NCBI GenBank assembly: GCA_016124855.1 | Contig: WGMX01000013.1 | Location: 1 to 64,000 of the forward strand | DNA: 64,000 bases | Reading direction: 5' to 3' | Source of the DNA: Anaerolineaceae bacterium | GTDB lineage: Bacteria; Chloroflexota; Anaerolineae; Aggregatilineales; Phototrophicaceae | Shown here: one piece after another, positions 48,059 to 53,530 of the stretch | Layout: each line of letters starts with the position of its first letter | Numbering within the stretch: the stretch's first letter is position 1 | Translations under genes and position numbers: made by a program | Notes under the pieces: generated by a model | What the model saw: only the letters and a program-made list of their open reading frames with translations | Told to the model about the DNA's origin: nothing | Database searches by the model: none

Positions 48059-48478
48059 ATGATTAAAGAGTTTCGCACGTTCATTATGAGGGGTAACGTC
48101 CTTGACCTTGCTATCGGTGTCATCATCGGCAGCGCATTTGGGGCAATCGTCACCTCGTTGGTGAATAACATCATTATGCCGCCAATTGGGGTGATTCTCG
48201 GCGGGGTAGATTTCAGTGCAATTAAGATCGTCTTGCAGCAGGCAGGGGCCAAAACGCTGGCGGATGGTACACCATCACCGGAAGTCGCCATTGGTATCGG
48301 TCTATTCATAAATGCGATCATCAGTTTCTTGATCATCGCGTTTGTGGTATTTCTTATTGTCCGTGCCGTCAACAAGATTATGCCGCCCCCACCACCGCCC
48401 CCACCACCCGGCCCAACCACTGAAGAAAAGATGCTTGCCCAGTTGGAAAAGCTCAACGAAACGATGGCGAAGAAGTAG
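48059..48478 (+). CDS. mscL: large-conductance mechanosensitive channel
   Basis: A 139-residue MscL. N-terminal amphipathic helix and first membrane helix KEFRTFIMRGNVLDLAIGVIIGSAFGAIVTSLVNNIIMPPIG are diagnostic; the second helix is IGIGLFINAIISFLIIAFVVFLIVRAVNK. The periplasmic loop is short. The C-terminus has a run of nine Pro (PPPPPPPPPG) before the cytoplasmic helix EEKMLAQLEKLNETM, an unusual rigid spacer. It forms a homopentamer that opens under membrane tension in hypo-osmotic shock. GGGAG stands upstream of the ATG. Confidence 0.95.
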   Translation: MIKEFRTFIMRGNVLDLAIGVIIGSAFGAIVTSLVNNIIMPPIGVILGGVDFSAIKIVLQQAGAKTLADGTPSPEVAIGIGLFINAIISFLIIAFVVFLIVRAVNKIMPPPPPPPPPGPTTEEKMLAQLEKLNETMAKK

Positions 48479-51528: not shown

Positions 51529-52875
51529 CTATATTACAGTAGGTAAAGCGTCTATCGAATGATCCGGCAAATCACCTTCGATCTGCCGTACTTTCGGAAA
51601 CAAATAACCGCTCAAGCAGATGATTGTTCCAGCGATGCTCGTGCAAAGGAACATAAGCGCCATGCCTGCCCCCGGCCCTGTACCCAGCAGTTCACCAAAG
51701 ACGTTTGCCAGCGCACCACCTTCACGCATCGCTGGTTCAAGTAATTTGTCGGCTATCGGGCCAGCGATCAAATAACCAATGGGCATTCCGATTTGCTCAA
51801 TCGCTCCCCGCGCGGCGAATACCCGTCCCTGTAAAGCCGGCGGAACTTTTGACTGCCAGATCGTTTGTTTAGAACCGACGATGATCGGTACGAAAATCGT
51901 GGCAAACAAAATCGCGAACATCCAAACCGCTGGTGTACGTCCGACCGCCATCAGAAAGTCACCCGTCAAAAACGAAAATGCGCCCACAAGGAAGATGCCA
52001 TGAATGCGACGTTTTGGCCCACCCCAAATACTCATGATGATCCCGCCAATGATGCCGCCGACACCCATTGCGGCTTGGACATTGCCCAGTGCAACTTCAT
52101 CACCGCCTGTTCGTGCCAGCACCATCGGCGCAAGAATAGCGTAATAGGTCAGCGCCGCCGTAACATTGATCCCCACGTAGATGCACAGCAATCCGAACAA
52201 ACCGGGGCGCTGACGAATGTAATTAAAACCGGTGACCAGATCAGCACGGATACGGCGATCAGCTTGCTCGTGTTCATTGCTGGTGATAACGCGTGGAATC
52301 GAAATGAACAGCAGCGGGATGATGCCAACGAAAAAGCTAAAGAAGTCGATCAACATCACACCCCCCAACCCGAATGCAATCAGTAGTTGTGCTGCAAGGG
52401 CAGGTGCAATCACCTGTGAGGCGGCTTCAGAAAACGAACGCATCCCACTGACACGTCCATATTGTTCTTTAGTAACCAGCAGTGATATGGAGGCCGTATA
52501 AGCCGGTACTTGAAAAGCCTCAAACGCACCTGTTAAAGCCACCGCCACGTACAGATGCCAGATCAACAGTTGCCCCGACGTGTACAGCAGCAGCAGGATC
52601 AAAACCATTAACCCTGCGCCTACATCACTGACGATCATCACCAAGCGCCGGTCAAGACGATCAACCACCACACCCGCCATCGGGCTGATGAGGATGTATA
52701 GACTATACGAGAAGAACCCGATCAAGGCTAACGGGGTGGCTTGTCCACTTTGCTGGTAAGCCCAGATCATCAAGCTAAAACGGGTAGTCGCTGTGCCAAA
52801 CTGCGACAGCATTTGCGCGAACCAGATGAGCGAAAACTTTTGCATTCCGCTGAGGTGAGATAATCGTTGCGTCAT
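51529..52875 (-). CDS. MFS exporter, macrolide-efflux (MefA)-like
   Basis: A 448-residue MFS protein with 12 membrane helices. SLIWFAQMLSQFGTATTRFSLMIWAYQQSGQATPLALIG, LISPMAGVVVDRLDRRLVMIVSDVGAG and later VTKEQYGRVSGMRSFSEAASQVIAPALAA are typical of the MFS_3/MefA group of drug and siderophore exporters. Substrate is unknown. The start at 52875 is chosen because an upstream extension would translate the hairpin at 52919-52956. The SD before 52875 is poor (CAGG directly before ATG). A leader ORF and terminator lie just upstream, so expression may be attenuation-controlled. Confidence 0.85.
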   Translation of the reverse strand: MTQRLSHLSGMQKFSLIWFAQMLSQFGTATTRFSLMIWAYQQSGQATPLALIGFFSYSLYILISPMAGVVVDRLDRRLVMIVSDVGAGLMVLILLLLYTSGQLLIWHLYVAVALTGAFEAFQVPAYTASISLLVTKEQYGRVSGMRSFSEAASQVIAPALAAQLLIAFGLGGVMLIDFFSFFVGIIPLLFISIPRVITSNEHEQADRRIRADLVTGFNYIRQRPGLFGLLCIYVGINVTAALTYYAILAPMVLARTGGDEVALGNVQAAMGVGGIIGGIIMSIWGGPKRRIHGIFLVGAFSFLTGDFLMAVGRTPAVWMFAILFATIFVPIIVGSKQTIWQSKVPPALQGRVFAARGAIEQIGMPIGYLIAGPIADKLLEPAMREGGALANVFGELLGTGPGAGMALMFLCTSIAGTIICLSGYLFPKVRQIEGDLPDHSIDALPTVI

Positions 52876-52918
52876 CCTGTTATCTTTCTGTGTGTATCCA
52901 TCGACGGCAAATAGGCAA

Positions 52919-52956
52919 TAAAAAACGGCTGTGAACACATGCGTCCACAGCCGTTT
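52919..52956 (-). terminator. leader terminator upstream of the MFS gene
   Basis: Eleven-base perfect arms AAACGGCTGTG and CACAGCCGTTT, a 12-base loop and then a U-run (six U counting the arm). It is 28 bases after the leader ORF and 44 before the MFS start. Confidence 0.8.
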
Positions 52957-52983
52957 AGTAATGAAAAACTGTTAGTGAGTCAC

Positions 52984-53076
52984 TTACTGAGTAGCGGACG
53001 CATCTTCTCTATAGCGCCCCAAAACTTCCATGAATAATATTTTGTTGAAGTCATCTATCAAACAAAACATAGTCAT
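52984..53076 (-). CDS. 30-residue leader peptide candidate
   Basis: A short ORF reading MTMFCLIDDFNKILFMEV then LGRYREDASATQ. AGGAG lies 4 bases upstream of the ATG and a promoter (53103-53130) about 26 bases upstream. It stops 28 bases before a strong intrinsic terminator that precedes the MFS gene. Codons for Asp-Ala-Ser near its end (52996-53003) contain ATGCGTCC, perfectly complementary to GGACGCAT in the loop and arm of that terminator (52939-52946). A leader peptide controlling the exporter is the likeliest role; a free small protein or small RNA is the alternative. Confidence 0.55.
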   Translation of the reverse strand: MTMFCLIDDFNKILFMEVLGRYREDASATQ

Positions 53077-53102
53077 AACACTCCTAACATCATTCCAGTG
53101 TC

Positions 53103-53130
53103 ATCATAGCAAACCTTGCTTCGAAGTCAA
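53103..53130 (-). promoter_or_regulatory. sigma70-like promoter of the leader ORF/MFS unit
   Basis: TTGACT, a 16-base spacer and TATGAT. It is one of the best promoter matches in the window. A start around 53096 would leave about 20 bases before the leader ATG. Confidence 0.6.
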
Positions 53131-53143
53131 TCAGCCTTTAGCC

Positions 53144-53530
53144 CTAGAAATCCGGCTTATACGACATAGCCTCAATGGCCTCCGCCACTTTGATGTCCGT
53201 CGCCGTGACTTTATCGCCTGCATCATGCGTCGAAAACGAAACCGTCACCTTGCGCCATTTAATAAGAATGTCGGGATGATGATCGAAGCCTTCTGCCAAC
53301 GTTCCAATCGTTGTAGCGAAGGCCAATCCCGCCAAATACGTGGTGAATTTGAATGTTTTCTGAATCACATCCCCTTCATGTGACCAGCCATGTAGGGTTT
53401 TGAGTGCTTTGGCAATCGCCTCGTCGGTCATCGGTTTGCGTGCTGCGGGTGTGGGTTTCTTCGGTGCAGATGCGGGCTTCTTAGCTGCCGGTGTCGTTTT
53501 CTTGGGTTTAGACTTAGATGTAGTCGCCAT
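53144..53530 (-). CDS. pterin-4a-carbinolamine dehydratase with Lys/Ala/Pro-rich N-tail
   Basis: A 128-residue protein. The last 95 residues are the PCD/DCoH fold: HGWSHEGDVIQKTFKFTTYLAGLAFATTIG, GFDHHPDILIKWRKVTVSFSTHDAGDKVTATDIKVAEAIEAM. The HHPD and W..V...THDAG motifs are the active site. The N-terminal 33 residues (TSKSKPKKTTPAAKKPASAPKKPTPAARKP) are a basic, low-complexity tail that resembles histone H1-like tails and is not part of the enzyme family. PCD dehydrates 4a-hydroxytetrahydrobiopterin; without an evident pterin hydroxylase here the role is uncertain. GGAGG precedes ATG 53530. Confidence 0.85.
   Translation of the reverse strand: MATTSKSKPKKTTPAAKKPASAPKKPTPAARKPMTDEAIAKALKTLHGWSHEGDVIQKTFKFTTYLAGLAFATTIGTLAEGFDHHPDILIKWRKVTVSFSTHDAGDKVTATDIKVAEAIEAMSYKPDF

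Follow-up and report, generated by a model that had tools for sequence, protein, structure and literature searches.

Most known leader peptides that sense drugs come from a handful of well-cultured groups. In attenuators of the trp type, four segments numbered 1 to 4 pair alternatively as 1:2, 2:3 or 3:4; the leaderless short-ORF attenuators of mycobacteria, which Canestrari is said to have described in 2020, are reportedly cysteine-responsive. The locus considered here lies in a stretch of 64,000 nucleotides (the window) of a 7.1 Mb Anaerolineaceae genome. With the trp type it shares the predicted 1:2, 2:3 and 3:4 alternatives, and it differs in the absence of a regulatory codon run and in the targets of its relatives, mostly exporter, ABC-F and acetyltransferase genes. 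The likeness to the mycobacterial attenuators is the leaderless attenuator ORF predicted for most leaders of ABC-F genes, whereas the leader in the window is not leaderless.

The closest described system is streptococcal mefA/msrD, where a Mef exporter and an ABC-F protein are each subject to ribosome-mediated attenuation through their own short leader peptide (MefAL and MsrDL), as proposed below, and where an intrinsic terminator was demonstrated for msrD (PMC10314930). In the present system, by contrast, the two genes stand apart on the genome, each leader comprises 20-34 codons, both a covarying antiterminator and a competing 1:2 hairpin are predicted, and MTASMRLR and MYLIFM are absent from the MFS and ABC-F leaders listed. 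Bacillus subtilis vmlR resembles it in placing an upstream ORF, an anti-antiterminator, an antiterminator and a terminator before an ABC-F gene; its ORF is a tripeptide, and the comparison made here is one of layout (PMC9226507). Escherichia coli toiL also has a short upstream ORF and senses ribosome-targeting drugs but acts on a ribosome-binding site and Rho (PMC12121999), whereas an intrinsic terminator is found here. Further literature covered is PMC7790235 and PMC10219788. Searches of the open-licence literature, judged by title, listed no report of leader peptides or attenuators of this kind in Chloroflexota, and titles matching Anaerolineae and ABC-F dealt with other matters.

The leader in the window is real, conserved and attenuator-like. 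Judged from its sequence, the segment 53130-52923 is probably a ribosome-operated transcription attenuator of an MFS exporter gene, likely induced by ribosome-targeting antibiotics. Such a mechanism had been proposed in the initial annotation; taken part by part, it is supported as a predicted ribosome-stall attenuator and is extended here by a predicted competing 1:2 hairpin, a candidate stall site, a class-wide spread and a second target gene. We predict an antibiotic-type attenuator family in Anaerolineae, a variant of the known kind in which many members have predicted leaderless ORFs. Such a family would mark environmental genes responding to antibiotics, and its many natural variants, arrest-like peptide and frame-free ruler would form a test set for ribosome arrest by drug and nascent peptide. 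It is open to testing because named Leptolinea and Longilinea strains carry the element.

The leader in the window

The features of the locus are collected in Table 1.

Table 1. Positions of the attenuator elements and the exporter gene in the window.
Feature	Position	Strand	Sequence or basis
Promoter	53103..53130	minus	TTGACT (53130-53125), 16 nt, TATGAT (53108-53103); TG before the -10
Shine-Dalgarno AGGAG of the leader ORF	53081..53085	minus	sequence
Leader ORF, 30 codons	53076-52984	minus	sequence; stop codon 52986-52984
Leader ORF, shorter version, 28 codons	start at second ATG, 53070	minus	MFCLIDDFNKILFMEVLGRYREDASATQ; aligned with relatives
In-frame Met codon, candidate stall site	53029..53031	minus	recurrence in MFS leaders
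Segment 1, inside the ORF	53014..53019	minus	GGGCGC; duplex scan, RNA folds
Segment 2	52994..53003	minus	ATGCGTCCGC; complementary to segments 1 and 3; duplex scan
Segment 3, terminator left arm and loop	52939..52948	minus	GTGGACGCAT; duplex scan
Intrinsic terminator hairpin (3:4)	52923..52956	minus	terminator scan, folds; T-rich tail TTTATT 52922-52917
MFS exporter gene, 448 aa	51529..52875	minus	likely ATG at 52875

The promoter and the AGGAG were where the initial annotation had placed them, and a TG extension is now added to the former. The 30-codon ORF that it had read is present, although the second ATG, which aligns with the start in relatives and gives 28 codons, is the likelier start. 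Its remark that the exporter gene has a poor Shine-Dalgarno sequence of its own was accurate: CAGG directly abuts the ATG. The hairpin, described as an 11-base perfect stem, does have 11 perfect pairs (the scan counted 15) and is the longest among eight terminator-like sites in 6 kb. Neither those eight sites (6.9 +/- 2.6 in shuffles) nor the 10 promoter-like sites in the same 6 kb (5.6 +/- 2.4) are clearly above chance, so the weight rests on the recurrence of promoter and terminator in relatives. The RNA 53097-52876 folds more strongly than 200 of 200 shuffles (z -2.97). No Rfam 15 family reached its gathering score and nothing credible appeared at E <= 1, a GABA3 match being set aside as chance (19 bits against a cutoff of 57).

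An 8-base complementarity between the leader ORF and the terminator had also been pointed out. It is exact (53003-52996 with 52946-52939) and extends to 10 pairs including one G·U (53003-52994 with 52948-52939), and none of 300 dinucleotide shuffles matched leader to terminator equally well (p 1/301). The two outcomes are balanced in predicted energy, at -21.4 kcal/mol for the 2:3 state and -22.2 for the terminator.

The downstream gene had been called a MefA-like exporter. Its product matches the MFS_1 and MFS_3 profiles, and TIGR00900 below that model's cutoff; the resemblance to Mef stands as a distant one, far below the NCBIfam Mef cutoffs (113.3 bits against 675 for Mef(A)). No PDB sequence matched the exporter at E <= 0.001.

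Recurrence among exporter homologues

Homologous loci were found by exporter protein sequence alone in named genomes, mostly Anaerolineae MAGs, and the best 80 of 98 confirmed loci were kept. Within these best 80, a terminator-like match lies upstream in 41 and a terminator with a visible leader in 36; the remaining five (L050, L073, L086, L105 and L106) were left out by eye because no leader was visible. The 36 named loci and the window form the working set of 37. Close homologues within the genus carry, by eye, the same leader. Named strains in the working set are Leptolinea tardivitalis (L067), Leptolinea sp. HRD-7 (L064) and Longilinea arvoryzae (L063). The initial annotation had made its reading depend on conservation among homologues, and the ORF, the hairpin and the complementary pair do recur at matching places across divergent loci.

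On a tree of 78 exporter proteins (L100, L103 and L106 not included), the leader is confined to one group, in which 37 of 46 members carry it. Support for this group is 0.46, and 1.0 for its 51-member parent. Leader status requires six parsimony changes on the tree, against a mean of 26.4 and a minimum of 20 in 500 shuffles.

Some further cases deserve mention. Locus L032 (JAPUDW010000406.1), titled Bacteroidetes, has an exporter 77% identical to that of the window and the same leader, and is likely a mislabelled Anaerolineae bin. Four loci of the genus (L017, L018, L019 and L022) share upstream of an MFS gene a TATTATGGT-like -10, in L019 TATTATCAT, immediately followed by a GC-rich hairpin. 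In the Lachnospiraceae relatives L104 and L108, a different shared short ORF, MLCHM[DN]IDLSGKLCTRSVCRA[IM]LVQR by eye, lies some 200 nt upstream of the MFS start and contains an 11-bp perfect hairpin, possibly an unrelated attenuator.

Predicted alternative pairings of the leader RNA

The terminator was the one helix that RNAalifold recovered from the MAFFT alignment A2. The loops of 1:2 differ in length, and the pairings were therefore tested by script; the duplex scan used was a narrow one, since a wider search region gave pairings at odd positions in some loci. Of the 37 loci, 15 pair 2:3 better than shuffles do (p < 0.05), with p >= 0.05 in the other 22, and the distribution of p values is far from uniform (KS 4e-12), these values not being independent across related loci. 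In 31 of 37 loci segment 2 lies at -60..-30 relative to the terminator (scan span -75..-21). Leaders pair better with their own terminators than with swapped ones, the mean energy being equalled in 23 of 20000 permutations. The helix is kept through compensatory changes, as between the window (ATGCGTCC/GGACGCAT, own p 0.003), L083 (AACGCCTGC/GCAGGCGTT, 0.003), L044 (GGAGTGTG/CACACTCC, 0.017), L074 (GCGCGCCC/GGGCGCGC, 0.023), L093 (GTGTGCC/GGCACAC, 0.056) and L047 (ATGTGTC/GACACAT, 0.066). Segments 2 and 3 are predicted to form, in divergent loci, an antiterminator that would exclude the terminator. The suggestion that the complementary stretch acts as antiterminator or competitor gains from this recurrence in place and covariation.

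The pair is broken by a mismatch in the three closest relatives, L031-L033, whose exporters are 77-80% identical to that of the window. There 2:3 is no better than in shuffles (p 0.96), GCGCCC standing opposite GGACGC with the mismatch in mid-helix, and the predicted energies of the 2:3 state are -12.9 to -18.7. The same loci have a stronger 1:2 (-14.6 to -20.3) than the window (-11.3).

The competing 1:2 pairing reaches p < 0.05 in six of 37 loci and stays at or above 0.05 in 31, the window among them (0.136); for the set, Fisher's combination gives 5e-5. Examples are L041 (GCGCACTG/CGGTGCGC, p 0.010), L042 (GCGCACCT/AGGTGCGC, p 0.023) and L051 (GCTACACGT/GCGTGTAGT, p 0.023); L067 (GGGCAC/GTGCCC, p 0.136) and L046 (GCACGC/GCGTGC, p 0.209) are less certain. 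Mean predicted energies are -12.3 kcal/mol for 1:2, -20.3 for the state preceding the right arm with a ribosome at the Met codon, and -18.8 for the terminator. In the full-length RNA with a ribosome at Met, the terminator is still the best fold in 33 of 37 loci, so antitermination would need to be kinetic, with 2:3 forming first.

The leader peptide and the candidate stall site

The N-termini of the 36 MFS leaders are too diverse for a common arrest peptide. Of these leaders, 27 have an internal in-frame Met codon at 68-92 nt ahead of the terminator and nine lack it, against 11.2 +/- 2.5 in codon shuffles (maximum 20 in 5000), the interval having been picked after inspection of the leaders. 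The Met codon precedes segment 2 by 11-35 nt (median 28) in 23 of the 27; the four distances of 5-8 nt (L031-L033 and L038) were omitted from the median because segment 2 is not at its usual place. In 17 of 36, the window included, a promoter (score >= 8) is found 25-42 nt upstream of the leader ATG, and 13 of the 17 have a Shine-Dalgarno-like stretch; in 14 of 36 the gap is 6-9 nt, as in the predicted leaderless transcripts described below. Locus L041, with an unclear start codon, is excluded from the Met and promoter counts.

ABC-F genes as a predicted second target

A covariance model built from 23 MFS leaders alone (R1) was used to search the genus (17 genomes). At E below 0.01 it matched 11 MFS leaders, 11 further full-length sites and one partial site. 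Nine of the 11 further full-length matches, in nine of the 17 genomes, precede an ABC-F gene; the other two look like chance.

An ORF of 22-31 codons was obtained by script from 43 of 44 ABC-F loci; the exception, L202, lacks a scripted leader though its sequence by eye starts MVYVGYFTLISRCRITS. These leaders share the N-terminal consensus M[IV]YF[ST]xxxxLS[FR]ALM[TA]S. In the 41 leaders used for the codon-position test (L182 and L186 left out), the commonest residues are Y3 (32), L10 (28), S11 (31) and S17 (32), while A13 (16), L14 (18) and M15 (19) are the commonest at their positions, yet in under half of the leaders. Entropies at codon positions 1, 2 and 3 are 1.33, 1.06 and 1.61, a contrast equalled in 17 of 100000 phase permutations, and this pattern is the mark of a leader peptide under selection. 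Segment 2 is not kept as peptide: its GCGCC falls in frame 1 in 20 leaders, frame 2 in six, frame 0 in one and after the stop in 16, and its distance to codon 15 is 32-36 nt in 43 of 43. It is the RNA that is maintained, at a distance from codon 15 and not in a frame. A promoter (score >= 8) ends 6-9 nt, most often 7, before the ATG of 37 of the 43, and most ABC-F leaders are accordingly predicted to be leaderless transcripts.

In the window genome, the ABC-F gene and its own attenuator (L170, G000:C78, 3322-11830) lie near two paralogues of the MFS exporter of the window (41 and 47% identity). The protein passes the ribosomal protection-like model NF000355 of NCBIfam (417.8 bits, cutoff 380) and falls below the cutoffs of named resistance ABC-F proteins (Msr, for example, 274.3 against 680). 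The solved chains nearest to it in sequence are YbiT and EttA, and a role in resistance is on both counts only putative.

Spread and other candidate target genes

A second model (R2), which includes ABC-F leaders, matched, at E <= 0.01, 69 of the 154 order genomes and, at E <= 0.001, 71 of the 396 class genomes. From the 112 order matches listed, six MFS leaders already in the set, three partial matches and the 18 weakest were removed. The resulting 85 order loci precede ABC-F genes (44), MFS genes (16), DrrA-like ABC ATPase genes (8), GNAT acetyltransferase genes (5) and unrecognised genes (12). The ABC-F share under R2 arises partly by construction, since the model includes ABC-F leaders; R1 is the independent test. 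L210 scores 251.6, below the drrA cutoff of 312.45, and the MFS case L194 could not be placed. The 25 class loci comprise six ABC-F cases (one at 33%), five GNAT cases, three DrrA-like cases (one of them over just 40 residues) and 11 without a match.

Acetyltransferases of the GNAT type, about 340 aa long, stand behind the attenuator in L228, L231, L236, L250 and L251 and are candidate resistance enzymes; that of L228 is weakly MshD-like (60.5, below the cutoff of 163.1). L157, L161, L237, L238, L242 and L244 look like terminator-only or chance matches. Two of them, L237 (partial) and L238, are weak matches in the vicinity of genes that by eye are DAHP synthase-like, and could be an amino-acid attenuator or chance.

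Proposed mechanism and alternative readings

The proposed attenuator would work through the position of the ribosome on the leader. A ribosome that reaches the stop codon would cover segment 2, and the terminator would fold and stop transcription; with no ribosome on the leader, 1:2 would form, again leaving the terminator to fold and transcription to stop. Were a ribosome to stall with the Met codon (53031) near its P site, its front edge would lie at about 53015, given the 16-nt reach beyond the P-site codon taken from published toeprints (PMC9226507, PMC6851288). Segment 1 would then be covered and segment 2, from 53003, left free to pair with segment 3 ahead of synthesis of the right arm, and RNA polymerase would read on into the exporter gene. 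The distant Mef resemblance and the ABC-F partners suggest, by analogy, a drug whose target is the peptidyl transferase centre or the exit tunnel.

A wider and more tentative reading, to which we give slightly less than even credence, is that Anaerolineae possess a class-wide regulon of ribosome-arrest attenuators. It would include a new type of arrest peptide before ABC-F genes, bearing the consensus given above and often on leaderless mRNA, would sense ribosome-targeting compounds, and would turn on genes for export, ribosome protection and acetylation, a frame-free distance of ~28-34 nt from stall to switch coupling peptide to RNA.

The same attenuator could answer a signal other than an antibiotic: translation stress, a metabolite, or the native substrate of the exporter held in the ribosome tunnel. 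TnaC, a leader whose substrate is sensed in the tunnel, offers a model. Such a signal would suit the diversity of the MFS leader peptides, the putative status of resistance for exporter and ABC-F alike, the housekeeping nature of the nearest solved relatives of the ABC-F protein, and the few matched loci that precede other genes, namely a RIO kinase (L247) and RsgA (L246). We nevertheless consider it unlikely, as 73 of the 85 order loci precede ABC-F, MFS, DrrA-like ABC or GNAT genes.

The stall might instead occur late in the leader, at the RYR of the window (codons 19-21, 53016-53008) or at the R-x-x-A-[PS] end of leaders, and act directly on the terminator. RYR is a known macrolide arrest motif, described for tylosin in the B. 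subtilis yxjB leader (PMC6851288), and some R/K-x-R/K is present in six of 36 MFS leaders, that of the window included, and in eight of 43 ABC-F leaders. The motif, however, has no common place, the nearest relatives have THR, LHR or AHR instead, and a ribosome at RYR would cover half of segment 2. The conserved end of the ABC-F leaders falls in different frames, so that RNA is kept there. A late stall is very improbable.

Also very improbable is an amino-acid attenuator of the trp kind, in which the ribosome would stall for want of one charged tRNA. It has in its favour the four-segment layout and the two weak matches near DAHP synthase-like genes, and against it the absence of a regulatory codon run, no single-residue run exceeding three in the 36 MFS leaders or two in the 43 ABC-F leaders, and recognised targets that are not biosynthetic. 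Scarcely credible is the reading in which the hairpin serves the upstream pterin dehydratase gene as a constitutive terminator and the ORF is there by chance: that gene does end at 53144, adjoining the leader, but a promoter-like site lies between the two, the layout is found again behind different upstream sequence and also before ABC-F genes, and the ABC-F leaders show codon periodicity.

Elsewhere in the window, at 48059-48478 on the plus strand, a protein that by eye resembles the MscL channel has nine consecutive prolines close to its C-terminus.
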